Source of the DNA: Candidatus Borkfalkia stercoripullorum
GTDB taxonomy: Bacteria; Bacillota; Clostridia; Christensenellales; Borkfalkiaceae
DNA: 64,000 bases
Direction of reading: 5' to 3'
NCBI GenBank assembly: GCA_019119395.1
Contig: DWXC01000028.1
Location: 1-64,000 of the forward strand
Under the pieces are notes generated by a model. The model saw only the letters and a list, made by a program, of their open reading frames with translations, was not told the origin of the DNA and did not search any database. Positions 5,979-54,959 of this stretch are shown piece by piece (position 1 is the first letter of the stretch; every line of letters starts with the position of its first letter). The translations under genes and the position numbers were made by a program.

Positions 5979-8900
5979 ATGGAAGGGTTCGGAAGGCGCT
6001 TGAAAGAATTGCGCCAGACGGCGAAAATCACGCAATCGGGGTTAGCGGAAAAATTGAATCTCCATCCGCAGACCGTTTCCAAATGGGAGAGAGGTCTGTC
6101 GGAACCGGACATATCGCAGTTGGGCGATTTGGCGGCAGCCCTCGGCATCACGCTTGAAAAACTGCTCGGGAAAGAGGAGCCCGAACAATCGTATATCGGA
6201 AATTTCCGTGCCGAAGCGTTCGGGAGAATGCTTTCCGAACTCCGCGCCGGCCGCGGGGAGAGTCAGGAAGAGCTGGCTGCCGCGATGTCCGCGTCGCCGG
6301 ATGCGATTTCGCGCTGGGAACGCGGCATCACCTGCCCCGATCTTGAAAGGCTTTCCGCATTGGCCGACCATTTTGAGATCCCCGCATCGAAATTGTATTG
6401 CGGGTATTCCGAATCGCCGGCGGCGGAAAATGTTGCGTATATCAAAAAGGGCAAGCGGATTTCTGCCGTCTTAATCGCCGCGGCCTCGGCGATCCTCCTT
6501 CTGATCGGCATATTGACGCTCGCTCTATGGCCGGGTCGGGGGGTGGGCCGAGAGCCGGGCCTGTATACCGTAACGCTCGACGGAAACGAAATTTCCGTCA
6601 GCGAAAACGATTGGTTTATGCCGCAAACGCCCGTGCGTGACGGGTACGATTTTATCGGCTGGGAGGACGGACGGGGAGAGGCCGTTTCTTTCCCGTGCAA
6701 GATCGCGGGCGATTGTTCCTTTACTGCGGTTTTTGCCCCGCACGAATATGCGATCGATTATTGGCTGAACGGAGGATATTTTCTGCAGACGCCCCAAAGC
6801 ACTTTTACGGTGGAAAGCGGTTTGCTGGAAATTCCTACGCCCGAAAAGGCCGGCGCGGTGTTTGAGGGCTGGTACATGTCGGCTGATTATTCCGGCGACC
6901 CGGTCGCGCAGCTCCGATGCGTGGGCGAAAGCATAAAGCTGTTTGCGAAGTGGAGCGACGCCGTGTACACCGTCCGTTATGAACTGAACGGCGGCGTTTT
7001 GCACGGAGAAGAAAACCCCGAAACCGTAACGGCGGGCAGTCAATACGAACTGAAAGCCCCCGTCCGCAAAGGGTATGTGTTTTTGGGGTGGTACGATCAG
7101 TCGTACGGAGGCGAAAAGCATGAAAGCGTCGGGGGAGATTGCGCAAAGAATGTGACGCTGTATGCGCTCTGGCAGAAATGCGACGATCTGTTTACGGTAT
7201 ACTACAATCTGAACGGCGGAGAACCTGAGGCGGAAAACCCTGTATCCGTCGGGGCGGGGGAAGTACATAAACTGAACGGGGCTTCCAAAACGGGATATAC
7301 CTTCCTCGGCTGGAATACCGAAAAGGACGGCAGCGGGGAATACGTCGAGTACCTTTACGGGGTGGACGACGCGCTGTATCTGTATGCGGTATTCGAGCCC
7401 AAGGCATATGTGATCCGCTACATCTTCGAGGGCGGGTACGAGGGCGAAGAAACCAACCCGAATACCATCGTTTTCGGAGAGAGCGTGACGCTGTTGCCCG
7501 TTGCACTGTACGGGCACGAATTTATCGGCTGGTACGACGCGGAGGAAGGCGGCAATAAGGTCGACGTCATCGACAAAACGAACATTCTAGCCGTAACCGA
7601 ACTGTATGCGCGCTTCGAGCCTCTCCGCTTTACGCTTACATTGCAGGCGGGCGGCGGAACGTTTTTGTCGGACGGCGAGAACAGAACGGAGCAAACGTTT
7701 ACGATTTGTTTCGGGGAGACGATGGCGCTGCCCGATTGCAGCCTGACGGGGCATGATTTCCTCGGCTGGAACGAAAGCCCGGACGGCAGCGGCGAATTTT
7801 ACAAGTCCTTTACGGGCATGGAAGGCGATCAGACGCTCTATGCGGTGTATGCGGCAAAAGAATACCTGATCCGCTACGAATACGAGGGTGTATACGAGAG
7901 CGGAAAGGTCAACCCGAATTATATCGTCTACGGAGACACGGTTACGCTGTATTCCGTCTATCGGACGGGGTATGAGTTTATCGGCTGGTTCGATTCGGAA
8001 GAGGGCGGCAAACTCGTCGAAGTCATCGACGGGAGCAATATCACGAAAATTTCCGTTTTGTATGCCCGTTTCGATCCTTTGAAATATGAGATCACGCTCG
8101 ATGCGGGCGGCGGTTCGTTTACCACTCCCGACGGGGCTGAAACGGTCTATACCTATGTATTGGAATACGGGCAAACGTTCTCCCTTCCGTTGTGTACGCG
8201 CGAAGGGTATGCGTTTTTGGGCTGGTTCGATGAAGGCGGCAACGAAGTAGAGGAAATCACTTCGATCAACATCAAAAACATGACGCTGACGGCGAGTTGG
8301 CTGCAAACGGGCGTGGAATATCGGATCGAATATATCCTTGACGGCGGCACGATGACAGCGCCGAACCCGGATACGGCGCTCTCCGACGTGAGCGCTTTGC
8401 TGCCCGAGCCCGTGCGCGAGGGATATGTGTTCCTCGGCTGGTACGACAATTCTGGCGGCATGGGCGAGCCGTATCTCTGCACGCCGTTCGGGAGGATGGA
8501 CGATCTGACGCTGTATGCGCTCTGGCAGGAAGTAAAGGTCAGCGGCAGCGCGGAATTTTTTGATTACGAAAAGACGAGCGGCGAGGTGACGATCACAGAG
8601 TATACGGGCCCCACGGGCGAAAACGTCGACGTGGTCATCCCGTCTGTCATAGACAGTTTGCCCGTAACGCAGATCGGCAGCGATACCGTAGCGCAGCACG
8701 GAGCCAATATGGTTCGGTACAGTATTTTCGGCGCGCCGGATTCCGCCAAAATCCGCTCTCTTACCATTCCCGAAGGAGTTTTGGTATTAGCAGAAAATGC
8801 CTTCCGCACTCTGAAAGTGTCGAAGCCTTTGCAACTGCCTTCCTCGCTCGAAAGGCTTGAAAGCGGCTGCTTTGAATATTTTGACGGGGAAGTAATTTTT

Positions 8901-35219: not shown

Positions 35220-36460
35220 AAGAGCCGTTGATCCGCATAACGCGGAGAGAGGACATGCCTTGGTGGAAAAGCATGCTGATCCGATTGGGCGCGGTGGTCG
35301 CAGCGCTATGCGTAAGCGCCGCTTTCATTTCCGCGGCAGCGCCTTCCTCGAAAGGCTTTTTCGGTTATTTCGGATCGCTCTTTTCGGGTACGTTCGGCAC
35401 GGAGCGGAGGATTTGGATGCTGCTGCAAAACACGGCGCTGCTGCTCATGGTCGCGGTGGCGCTGGTCGTTGCGTTCAAAATGCGCTTTTGGAATCTGGGC
35501 GGGAACGGTCAGGTTCTGATGGGATGCCTTGCCAGCGCGGTGTGCATGTTTTACCTGGGCGGCAAACTGCCCGACCCCGTCGTATGGCTGCTGATGTTCG
35601 TTTCCGGCGTTTTGGCCGGGGCGGTGTGGGCGTGCATCCCGGCGCTTTTCAAGGCCTTTTTCAATACGAACGAATCGCTTTTCACCCTCATGATGAATTA
35701 TATCGCCGTGTGCCTGGTGGCGTTTTTCATATCGCTTTGGTATCCCGAAGGCACGGGCGCGATGCCTCCGCTCAGCGACGGCGCGCTGCCCTCGTTCGGG
35801 AGCGGCCAGATGGGAAGAACGCTCCCCATCGTCCTTGTGGCGGTTGTCATCACGGCGGCCATTTACTGTTATCTGCGTTTTCATAAGCACGGCTATGAGC
35901 TATCGGTTGTCAGCGACAGCAAAAACACGGCGAAATATGCAGGCATCAACGTAAAAAAAGTCATTATCCGTACGATGATCCTTTCGGGGGCGCTGTGCGG
36001 CATCGTCGGGTTCATACTCGTCGGTTCCGTCAACCACATGGTCAGCACGACGATGGACGACAACATGGGCTTTACCGGGATCATGGTCGCATGGATGGGC
36101 AATTTCAATCCTCTGATCATGGCGGCGGTCTCGCTGTTCATCATTTTCCTTTCGAGGGGAATGGCGCAGGTCTGCACCGATTTCGGCTATACCAGCGAAG
36201 CGCTTTCGGACACCGTTATAGGCATTATTTATTTCTTTTTTATCGGGTGCGAATTTTTTATCCGTTATAAAGTGCATATCAACCGCAGGAAACTGATGCG
36301 CATTTTCCACATCAAAAAAGGCGGTAAAGACGGCAGCGAGCCGGAGGAAAATCAAGCGCCCGAAATTTCCGAAGCGGAGCCCGCTCCCCAGGAGCAGGAC
36401 GGGCGATGCGAACCCGAATGCGAACGGGCCGTTCCGGAAACCAAAGAGGAGGTGAGCTGA
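35207..36460 (+). CDS. Nucleoside ABC transporter permease
   Basis: TM-rich ORF overlapping the ATPase stop; KMRFWNLGGNGQVLMGCLASAV. Confidence 0.9.
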   Translation: MGRIKEPLIRITRREDMPWWKSMLIRLGAVVAALCVSAAFISAAAPSSKGFFGYFGSLFSGTFGTERRIWMLLQNTALLLMVAVALVVAFKMRFWNLGGNGQVLMGCLASAVCMFYLGGKLPDPVVWLLMFVSGVLAGAVWACIPALFKAFFNTNESLFTLMMNYIAVCLVAFFISLWYPEGTGAMPPLSDGALPSFGSGQMGRTLPIVLVAVVITAAIYCYLRFHKHGYELSVVSDSKNTAKYAGINVKKVIIRTMILSGALCGIVGFILVGSVNHMVSTTMDDNMGFTGIMVAWMGNFNPLIMAAVSLFIIFLSRGMAQVCTDFGYTSEALSDTVIGIIYFFFIGCEFFIRYKVHINRRKLMRIFHIKKGGKDGSEPEENQAPEISEAEPAPQEQDGRCEPECERAVPETKEEVS

Positions 36461-49042: not shown

Positions 49043-51234
<2,192 letters not shown>

Positions 51235-51367: not shown

Positions 51368-51442
51368 ACACTCGTAGTATAACGGATAGAACGGTGGCCT
51401 CCGGAGCCGCAGATCCGAGTTCGATCCTCGGCGAGTGTACCA
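51368..51442 (+). tRNA. tRNA-Arg(CCG)
   Basis: Acceptor ACACTCG/CGAGTGT, anticodon loop CTCCGGA, T-arm CCGAGTTCGATCCTCGG, encoded CCA. Confidence 0.95.
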
Positions 51443-51470
51443 TGATTCGCGGTGAAAAATGCTGCGAGTT

Positions 51471-51515
51471 AAAAAAGCATTGAAAAACTTACTGTTTTTC
51501 AATGCTTTTTTGCTT
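51471..51515. terminator. Terminator downstream of tRNA-Arg
   Basis: AAAAAAGCATTGAAAAAC-ttact-GTTTTTCAATGCTTTTTT. Confidence 0.8.
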
Positions 51516-51599
51516 TTTAACGGGTAAAAACAGACCTTTGGCAGCATTTAGTTGCTGTGTCTTTTTATTCTGATTTTTTAACGTTATTTCAAAAATCGG

Positions 51600-52070
51600 G
51601 AAACGAACTCGCATGATCTCAGTAAGAGATTAGGGGATGTTTGCGCACTTATTGACAGCAACGGAAATGTTGTGGTACAATATAAGTACGATGCGTGGGG
51701 CAATCATGCGGTACTGTATTTGAACAAAGTAAACGACAAAGAGCAATACAGTGAAGCGGAGGATGCGGCGTTTGATGAAAATTATGCCAAAAATAAAACG
51801 CTTGCCGAACTGAACCCGTTCCGTTATCGCGGATATTACTATGATACGGAAACGGGCCTGTACTACCTGAAATCCCGCTATTACGACCCTGAAGTCGGCA
51901 GGTTTATAACGATAGACGACATCTCCTATATCGATACCGAAACGATAAACGGCCTGAACCTCTATGCCTATTGCGGGAATAATCCTGTGATGCGTATTGA
52001 CTCGAAGGGAAACGATTGGAATAGTTTTTGGTCAGGAGTAGGCAAATTGGTTTGTCGGAGTCGGAAATAG
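51600..52070 (+). pseudogene. 5'-truncated Rhs core C-terminus, then frameshifted from its tip
   Basis: LGDVCALIDSNGNVVVQYKYDAWGNH...ELNPFRYRGYYYDTETGLYYLKSRYYDPEVGRFITIDD...NGLNLYAYCGNNPVMRIDSKGND; no N-terminus after the tRNA. Confidence 0.85.
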
Positions 52071-52563
52071 TATAGGAAATTTCTTTACTCGTGATATACC
52101 TAATTGGTGGAATAATGATGTTGTGCCATTTTTCACTCGAGATATACCAAATTTCTTTACTAAAACAATACCTGATTGGTGGAATGGTTCAGTAGTTCCT
52201 TGGTGGAATAATGATGTTGTGCCATTTTTCACTCAGGATATACCAAATTTCTTTACTAAAACAATACCTGATTTTTTTGTAAATACTTTTTGGAATGATT
52301 GGATTGTAGACAAACTTTGGAATCAATTTATAGTGGGAATTATTTGGCAACAAGGCCTTTTGCCTGCATGGAATTGGCTTAAAGACAATTGGAAAACATT
52401 ACTTGATGGGATTTCGGCTGTTACCAGTATAGGCGGGGGAATTGTTGGGCTATTAGGTACATTAGGTGTTTTCAGTATTCCCGTGGTAGGTCAAGTAATA
52501 TTGGCTATTGTCTCTACCGGATTTGGCATATATGGATTAGGACGAGCTTGTAAATGGTGGTAA
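52061..52563 (+). CDS. Rhs C-terminal tip (candidate toxin) with aromatic octapeptide repeats and hydrophobic C-terminus; no good independent start codon
   Basis: FFTRDIPN WWNNDVVP FFTRDIPN FFTKTIPD WWNGSVVP WWNNDVVP FFTQDIPN FFTKTIPD ... GGGIVGLLGTLGVFSIPVVGQVILAIVSTGFGIYGLGRACKWW; frame +1 relative to the Rhs core. Confidence 0.7.
52105..52272 (+). repeat. 96-bp period tandem DNA repeat in the Rhs tip
   Basis: tggtggaataatgatgttgtgccatttttcactc... starts at 52105 and 52201. Confidence 0.85.
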
Positions 52564-52569
52564 AGTTTT

Positions 52570-52752
52570 ATGAGAATAATTAATATTTTAATAGTAATAA
52601 CTTATTTAATTTCTATTGTTTTTATACCGATTGCTTTATTTTGTATTTCGCTCGAAACTGTTTTTGGAGCGATAGGCTATAGCGCTTTAATTTTAGGTGG
52701 ATTACTTACGTTAATAAAAATAATTTTAACAAAAAGAGCTGGAAGAAAGTAA
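52570..52752 (+). CDS. 60-aa 2-TM protein, candidate immunity protein
   Basis: MRIINILIVITYLISIVFIPIALFCISLETVFGAIGYSALILGGLLTLIKIILTKRAGRK; 6 bp after the tip stop codon. Confidence 0.6.
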   Translation: MRIINILIVITYLISIVFIPIALFCISLETVFGAIGYSALILGGLLTLIKIILTKRAGRK

Positions 52753-52838
52753 TAGAAAATCTAGTTTTTCGGTGAATTGTTAAACTTAATGTAGAAATTC
52801 TGCAACACAAATTGGAAGAATATAAGGTAGAACAAAAT

Positions 52839-52878
52839 TAAAATAAGCAGCAGAGATAATTCTCTGCTGCTTATTTTA
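52839..52878. terminator. Perfect 18-bp-arm hairpin
   Basis: TAAAATAAGCAGCAGAGA-taat-TCTCTGCTGCTTATTTTA. Confidence 0.85.
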
Positions 52879-53016
52879 ATGAAAAATTTTTAATTATAAA
52901 AAAGGGATGGAAATTCTACACGGAAAGCGAAGTAGCGGAGAACGGGCAGGCGATAATATTTGTTTTTCTGATACCGCCCTTTCAAAATGGTGATAATTTA
53001 AAATCTTTTCCGCAGA

Positions 53017-53045
53017 TTGACAGCGCGTTCGCGTTATGATACAAT
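53017..53045 (+). promoter_or_regulatory. asnB/T-box promoter TTGACA-N17-TACAAT
   Basis: TTGACA 53017-53022, TACAAT 53040-53045. Confidence 0.75.
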
Positions 53046-53059
53046 TTGCCCATCCGATA

Positions 53060-53337
53060 AAGAAAAACGCAGAGACCGGGAAAAGTAACGGAACAAAATC
53101 CCTTCAAAGAGAGCGGCGCGCTTTGCTGAAAGCGCCGCAGGGGGCGTTCCGCGAAGAACACCCGCGAGCGGCGGCGGCGAACGTTTTTAACTATTAGCCT
53201 CCGACGGGCGGCCCGTTACAGCCGAAGCCTTTGCAAGAAGGCGGAGTTGCTCCCGCGCATTTCGGGAGATAAATCAGGTGGCACCGCGAAACGACAGCCT
53301 TTCGCCCTGAAATACAGGGCAAAAGGCTGTTTTTGTT
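53060..53337 (+). promoter_or_regulatory. T-box leader with terminator upstream of asnB
   Basis: T-box AGGTGGCACCGCG at 53276-53288; terminator ACAGCCTTT..AAAAGGCTGTTTTTG; AAC (Asn) triplet at 53189-53191. Confidence 0.88.
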
Positions 53338-53375
53338 TGTCTGCGCGCCGCGGGCGCGCGGAAGGGAGAGCTGTT

Positions 53376-54959
53376 ATGTGTTCTATTTTTTGCTGTACGA
53401 GCAGGGAAGTCGACTACAAAGCCATGACGGAAGGGTTTTACCGCACCGTGTCGCGCGGGCCGGACATGAGCCGCATCGAACGCACGCCCACGGGGTATAT
53501 CGCCTTTCACCGCCTCGCCATCATGGGGCTGAACGCGGCGGGGATGCAGCCCTTTTCCATGGGGAAAGACAAGCTCGTGTGCAACGGCGAAATTTACGGC
53601 TTCCGTCCCGTTAAAAAGAGGCTGGAAGAGCTGGGGTATGCCTTTTTATCGGACAGCGACTGCGAAATTTTGCTGCCGATGTACCGCGAATACGGGCTGA
53701 AAATGTTTTCCATGCTCGACGCGGAATTCGCGCTCGTTTTATATGACGGGGAAAGGGGGGAATATATCGCCGCGCGCGACCCCGTCGGCATACGCCCGCT
53801 GTATTACGCATATCTCGAAAACGGCGCGATCGTGTTTGCGAGCGAGCCGAAAAACCTCGTCGGCTGGACGCAGGGGGACATCATGCCCTTCCCGCCCGGG
53901 CATTACTATTATAAGGGGAAGTTTCATAAATTCTGCGATATAGCGGAAGTCAGGGAAGTGTGCAGCGACTCACTCGATGCAATCTGCCGCAACATCCGCG
54001 AAAAATTGACCGAAGGCGTTCGGAAACGCCTCGACGCGGACGCGCCCGTGGGGTTCTTGCTTTCGGGCGGGCTTGACAGTTCGCTCGTGTGCGCCATAGC
54101 GGCGAAGATCCTGCGCCGCCCCGTCAAGACGTTCGCCGTCGGCATGGACAAGGACGCGATCGACCTCAAATACGCAAAGGAAGTCGCCGAATACATCGGC
54201 AGCGAACATCACGAAATATATATGACGAGGGAAGAGGTGCTCTCTTCCTTGGAAACGGTCATCGCCGCGCTCGGCACCTTCGACATCACGACCATCCGCG
54301 CGTCGATGGGGATGTATCTCATCTGCAAGAAGATACACGAAATTTCCGACGTGCGCGTGCTTCTGACGGGCGAGATCTCCGACGAACTGTTCGGCTATAA
54401 ATATACCGACTTCGCGCCCGACGCCGCGGCATTCCAAAAGGAATCGCAAAAGCGCGTGCGCGAACTGCACATGTACGACGTTCTGCGCGCCGACCGCTGC
54501 ATTTCCGTCAACTCCATGGAAGCACGCGTGCCCTTCGGCGACCTCGATTTCGTAAAATACGTCATGAGCGTCGACCCCGAAAAAAAGATGAACGTCTACG
54601 GCAAGGGGAAATACCTCCTCCGCAAGGCGTTCGAAGGGGACTATCTGCCCGAAAATATTTTGTGGCGCGAAAAGGCGGCGTTTTCGGACGCGGTTGGGCA
54701 CTCCATGGTGGACGATCTGAAAGAGTACGCCGAAGAAAAATACGGCGCGGATTGGAAAAAGACCGCGCAAAAGTATGCCTATCACGCGAAGCCGTTCACG
54801 AAGGAAAGCCTTTTGTACCGCGAAATTTTCGAAAAGTACTATCCCGGACAGGCGAAAATGGTCAAAGCTTTCTGGATGCCCAACAAAAAGTGGGAGGGCT
54901 GCAACGTGAACGACCCGTCCGCGCGCGTCCTTTCCAACTACGGCGACAGCGGGAAATAA
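53376..54959 (+). CDS. asnB: Asparagine synthase (glutamine-hydrolysing)
   Basis: MCSIFCCTSRE (Cys2 nucleophile); GFLLSGGLDSSLVCAIA; LLTGEISDELFGYKY. Confidence 0.95.
   Translation: MCSIFCCTSREVDYKAMTEGFYRTVSRGPDMSRIERTPTGYIAFHRLAIMGLNAAGMQPFSMGKDKLVCNGEIYGFRPVKKRLEELGYAFLSDSDCEILLPMYREYGLKMFSMLDAEFALVLYDGERGEYIAARDPVGIRPLYYAYLENGAIVFASEPKNLVGWTQGDIMPFPPGHYYYKGKFHKFCDIAEVREVCSDSLDAICRNIREKLTEGVRKRLDADAPVGFLLSGGLDSSLVCAIAAKILRRPVKTFAVGMDKDAIDLKYAKEVAEYIGSEHHEIYMTREEVLSSLETVIAALGTFDITTIRASMGMYLICKKIHEISDVRVLLTGEISDELFGYKYTDFAPDAAAFQKESQKRVRELHMYDVLRADRCISVNSMEARVPFGDLDFVKYVMSVDPEKKMNVYGKGKYLLRKAFEGDYLPENILWREKAAFSDAVGHSMVDDLKEYAEEKYGADWKKTAQKYAYHAKPFTKESLLYREIFEKYYPGQAKMVKAFWMPNKKWEGCNVNDPSARVLSNYGDSGK

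Follow-up and report, generated by a model that had tools for sequence, protein, structure and literature searches.

A candidate orphan Rhs toxin–immunity module with a putative membrane-acting tip at a variable tRNA-Arg site in Candidatus Borkfalkia stercoripullorum

Orphan rhs-CT/rhsI modules have been described by Poole et al. 2011 (PMC3150448) and consist of a remnant of the Rhs core, a variable tip and a small downstream immunity gene, with no delivery part; an orphan Rhs immunity protein is able to protect (PMC10539506). Tse5 of Pseudomonas aeruginosa is an Rhs-delivered pore-forming toxin (PMC10684867, PMC9637101), in which a hydrophobic C-terminal toxin of about 16 kDa acts on the membrane. 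Among Bacillota, TelE and EsxX (PMC10434224, PMC12744356) have a hydrophobic C-terminal toxin end, which needs a glycine zipper, and are delivered via the LXG/T7SS route; the immunity proteins of EsxX include membrane proteins, and TipE is soluble. CDI ionophore toxins (PMC11630599) are delivered by CdiA and combine a variable entry part with a membrane-spanning end, which is a five-helix ionophore domain with a zipper motif; their immunity is polymorphic.

The locus studied here lies in a 64,000-nucleotide stretch of the genome of Candidatus Borkfalkia stercoripullorum (the window). Like the orphan rhs-CT/rhsI modules, it has an Rhs core upstream of a variable tip, a conserved small gene downstream and no N-terminal delivery part. 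It differs from them in that it belongs to Bacillota, occupies a variable site adjacent to a tRNA-Arg gene, carries a tip family without described relatives, and has its core and tip out of frame. The reading that we consider fairly probable is an orphan Rhs-CT/immunity module whose tip would act on the bacterial membrane.

The tRNA-Arg (CCG) gene at 51368–51442 (plus strand, ARAGORN) forms the conserved left flank of the site, and its neighbour is the same glycosyltransferase gene in most of the genus members that were examined. The glycosyltransferase gene is also adjoined by a gene on the minus strand (49043–50158) for a 371-aa collagen-like protein with Gly-x-Thr repeats (Pfam Collagen, E 1e-26). 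The nearest relative, G010, is syntenic with the window over the glycosyltransferase gene and tRNA-Arg as far as 51634, and again from 52957 onwards through the conserved right flank (52957–54959, plus strand), which comprises a T-box leader (53063–53312) and an asparagine synthase-like gene (asnB) matching Asn_synthase. Between the same breakpoints, G010 has about 7.3 kb of unrelated genes. Because synteny breaks at 51634 and resumes at 52957, the cassette is taken to span 51635 to about 52956, within a variable site bounded by tRNA-Arg and T-box/asnB. Its G+C content is low (0.30–0.45 versus 0.55 around it), and its right end carries a perfect 20-bp inverted repeat resembling a terminator (52837–52880, z -8.1). 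The whole stretch from tRNA-Arg (CCG) to T-box/asnB differs completely between the window (51443–52956) and G010 (C3, 41470–48930): the former holds the orphan Rhs tip, and the latter genes for a multidrug exporter-like protein, a P-type ATPase and a MerR-type regulator.

The initial annotation placed the Rhs sequence and tip at 51600–52563. This extent stands from 51635 onwards; positions 51600–51634 are host backbone shared with G010 and were dropped as Rhs sequence, which begins at about 51633–51635, as judged by the start of Rhs homology and the end of synteny with G010.

The 3' rhs fragment at 51635–52067 (plus strand, frame 51600) includes the end of the YD repeats and the Rhs-associated core, which matches Rhs_assc_core (TIGR03696) with E 1.8e-22, confirming the core end that had been recognised ahead of the tip. 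A stop codon follows at 52068–52070. The tip is encoded in frame 51601, which is open only downstream of the stop codon at 52039–52041, and forms an open frame of 173 aa at 52042–52563 (plus strand; stop codon 52561–52563). Hence, the core was correctly seen to precede the tip, but the two are one base apart in frame and no single frame joins them, so that core and octads cannot be one protein as assembled. The offset may be due to a mutation or to an assembly error. The core fragment has no start codon of its own and no N-terminal Rhs part, as host synteny reaches to 51634. Since the N-terminal part and a core start codon are missing and core and tip are out of frame, this copy is predicted to be silent. 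Designation of the tip as an orphan was borne out by the missing N-terminal part, by the cassette boundaries and by the assembly having a single Rhs_assc_core match.

A second Rhs fragment was found in the same genome (G000) on contig C19 at 35640–35993, minus strand (locus L116), which led us to drop an earlier view of the genome as otherwise free of Rhs sequence. This fragment is 93% identical to window positions 51633–51770 over 138 bp, and for this reason the cassette core appears to be of the same lineage as the resident rhs. It is itself cut by the contig end and continues in frame into a class II fructose-bisphosphate-aldolase-like gene (identified by eye), of which it is joined to the C-terminal part; the junction is either a genuine rearrangement or a chimera of the assembly. 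As C19 breaks off within the rhs fragment, a full-length rhs gene may lie in the assembly gap at its end. Rhs cores occur in 29 of the 121 relatives, often with several short tips in a row, and orphan tips are thus ordinary in this group. Short orphan fragments tend to begin at nearly one codon, around QGNxxALID just before the core (window 51633, L003 at about 5690 and 6768, L059 at about 2165, and L019), which may be a preferred recombination point.

Scanning with the tip across 84,980 species genomes revealed one true relative, L003, from an uncultured member of the Clostridia (CASDRK010000006.1), and profile searches of 398 genomes of the family, 396 of the order, 391 of the class and 300 of the phylum gave no further relative of the tip. 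Weak matches to the tip profile at L004, L007, L008 and L038–L041 were inspected and rejected, as they derive from proteins of other kinds, for the most part ordinary membrane proteins (typed by eye as MurJ-like, CAAX-protease-like, BCCT-like and MraY-like). Comparison of the tip and its partner with Pfam, NCBIfam, PHROG and PDB sequences gave nothing above the cut-off, in agreement with the original remark that the tip resembles no recognised nuclease or deaminase tip; DUF4781 was seen in L003 with E 0.0038, below its gathering score. There was no match to PDB chain sequences by phmmer of the tip at E up to 1, none to phages and plasmids by tblastn, and none in viral_contigs with the tip and immunity profiles. 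The tip was proposed initially as a new toxin class. It is a new, rare and undescribed Rhs tip family with no match to a known domain, but its general kind, an orphan Rhs-CT/RhsI with a membrane-acting tip, is already known.

The L003 tip (6010–6456) is read in the same frame as its core, has the same KWW end, and is followed directly by the partner gene. The tips of the window and L003, which belong to separate genera, end at the same residue and are followed by the partner gene 6 to 12 bp after the stop codon. Their C-terminal 104 residues (52249–52560, plus strand, in the window) include a Trp-rich segment, two hydrophobic segments and the KWW end, and share 69% identity with dN 0.21 and dS 1.31, the window and L003 being the only two sequences that carry the tip largely whole. 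The tip C-terminus is under amino-acid constraint. The glycine-rich hydrophobic segment noted originally after the octads is present in this region, which ends at 52563.

The nine aromatic octads were found exactly as first listed (FFTRDIPN-WWNNDVVP-FFTRDIPN-FFTKTIPD-WWNGSVVP-WWNNDVVP-FFTQDIPN-FFTKTIPD-FFVNTFWN), at 52081–52296 on the plus strand, with eight residues each and a 24-bp DNA repeat. Their periodicity is beyond chance: 22 identities were counted at lag 8 over 64 positions, as compared with a best value at any lag of 19 (mean 10.9) in 10,000 shuffles. At lag 32, 23 of 40 positions are identical, and a 96-bp unit is duplicated with 97% identity over 74 bp, the two units having two base differences in 72. 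The array as such is missing from L003, whose linker contains FFVEDVYG and then FFSDTIPD-FFVNTFWN, corresponding to window octads 8 and 9, and the ninth unit, FFVNTFWN, already belongs to the conserved C-terminal domain. Given this absence and the conservation of the C-terminal 104 residues, the octads look like a lineage-specific tandem expansion of an aromatic linker before the conserved domain. The conserved unit appears to be the Trp-rich, hydrophobic C-terminus and not the octads, which are not supported as the defining toxin domain. The search for Rhs proteins with octads, suggested at the outset, yielded a relative of the tip in frame with its core, but one without octads.

That the array is a functional, copy-number-variable module for membrane insertion, built of FF/WW..(I/V)P units, is decidedly improbable. 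If true, the octads would grow or shrink by 24-bp recombination, tuning engagement of the target membrane or of the immunity protein by the tip, and the array would be a repeat-based toxin element without a described counterpart. A comparison with phage tape-measure families, made in view of the aromatic repeats, gave no significant match (best PHROG tape-measure E 0.28).

The partner gene at 52570–52752 (plus strand) encodes 60 aa with two hydrophobic helices and a basic C-terminus, and its product is 45% identical to that of L003 6472–6678. The partner proteins have 60–73 aa and are hairpins, each with two hydrophobic segments and a tail that is basic. Use of the partner protein as a query revealed two further loci, in G042 and G074. 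The G042 locus comprises, in a row, an Rhs start, a decayed and frame-broken tip remnant (GVFAAAGIMSSPVAGQIV... and VGFGIYTSGNVF; sum E 7e-5) and the partner gene in intact form. The partner gene of G074 is solitary: the 16 kb examined have neither Rhs nor toxin sequence. The two partners differ by dN 0.20 and dS 0.62, and dN/dS is well below 1 for both tip and partner. The assignment of 52570–52752 as a candidate immunity gene for the tip is supported, since adjacency is kept in L003, toxin debris accompanies an intact partner in G042, and G074 has a solitary partner. An immunity gene is expected to be kept when its toxin has been lost, as the partner is here, and G042 and G074 would be sequence-level examples of immunity outliving its toxin. 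A pair of genes for a MerR-type regulator and an adhesin-like protein lies beside the decayed Rhs module in G042 (L058/L059) and beside asnB in G010 (L110), the two being of different genera.

These data also bear on whether the whole cassette is a product of decay, with no toxin or immunity function anywhere and with repeats arisen by slippage in unconstrained DNA. The frame offset, the missing 5' part, the lack of a start codon, and the presence elsewhere in this genome of another Rhs fragment, joined to an aldolase gene, are all consistent with decay. It is nevertheless very unlikely in view of the low dN/dS in tip and partner, the keeping of the partner without an intact toxin in G074 and G042, and the close similarity of the two 96-bp units.

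The tip contains 16 Trp and 17 Phe in 173 aa and is arranged as a Trp-rich stretch, two hydrophobic segments separated by a Pro-Val-x-Gly-Gln turn, and KWW. Hydrophobic segments are >1.6 KD in both tip and partner. AlphaFold2 gave low-confidence helical models for 173 and 104 aa of the tip (pLDDT 42 and 53, respectively, from a two-sequence alignment). The composition, the topology and the membrane-embedded partner make it plausible that the tip is membrane-active, as suggested initially. As to pore formation, the other part of that suggestion, the tips of the window and L003 have no GxxxGxxxG glycine zipper, and no homology of the tip to a characterised pore-former was detected. A depolarising toxin of the glycine-zipper type was considered and dropped, as the motif, (G/A/S)xxxGxxxG or GxxxGxxx(G/S/T) in the C-terminal helix, is absent or at chance level (one conserved small-xxx-small-xxx-small motif in the tip, shuffle mean 1.5).

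As in Tse5, a hydrophobic C-terminal tip follows an Rhs core, with a membrane action that is presumed for the window tip, but the sequences do not match, and Tse5 belongs to a Gram-negative T6SS and has no aromatic octads. The window tip shares its hydrophobic end with TelE and EsxX of Bacillota, but not their glycine zipper; as for EsxX, a membrane protein is the candidate for immunity. With the CDI ionophore toxins it shares the two-part idea, and no sequence link was found.

In Rhs tips of the family, the core is commonly followed by a glycine-rich hydrophobic stretch, in many of them ahead of the remaining tip sequence; such a stretch could serve translocation. The hydrophobic C-terminus may accordingly be viewed as a translocation or pre-toxin segment from which an enzymatic toxin was lost, the cassette being a truncated remnant without activity of its own. 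This is quite improbable: two separate genera have the same KWW end with the partner close behind the stop codon, and a small membrane partner suits a membrane toxin better than an enzyme.

The Trp-rich part around TIPDFFVNTFWNDWIVDK, with 11–12 of 13 residues identical between the window and L003, is more conserved than the hydrophobic part. This would fit a toxin–immunity module whose tip, instead of making a pore, binds or blocks an integral membrane protein involved in transport or in synthesis of the cell wall, the octads being docking repeats. In CDI ionophore toxins, entry does depend on a distinct domain which binds receptors in the membrane (PMC11630599). However, there is no known receptor, the octads are not conserved, and the hydrophobic length of the C-terminus is sufficient for insertion by itself; blocking of such a protein is thus unlikely.

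For the favoured membrane-acting tip, the following course is proposed. The tip would be carried by a full-length Rhs protein, enclosed in its YD-repeat shell, until cleavage at the core end freed it for delivery into a neighbouring bacterium. There, the stretch rich in Trp and Phe would come to lie at the interface of the cytoplasmic membrane, into which the hydrophobic hairpin of the C-terminus would insert, with depolarisation or permeabilisation as the result. Protection would come from the adjacent two-helix membrane protein of 60 aa, which would neutralise the tip within the membrane, and the octads would be a tandemly expanded aromatic linker rather than the active unit. We infer toxicity, the membrane target, neutralisation, the octad role and pore formation from the sequences. 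Membrane-acting Rhs tips have been described from a few Proteobacteria (Tse5), and the candidate pair would extend this mechanism to uncultured Bacillota; the tip and its two-helix membrane immunity protein make a small, testable toxin–immunity pair from an understudied lineage.

In L003, the first toxin–immunity pair is followed directly by a second orphan Rhs tip (6765–7637) with a basic C-terminus ending in GPHFHPNVNKNSPYYHDHYF. This is possibly another undescribed tip type; the tip of L011 has a similar end, GPHIHP.
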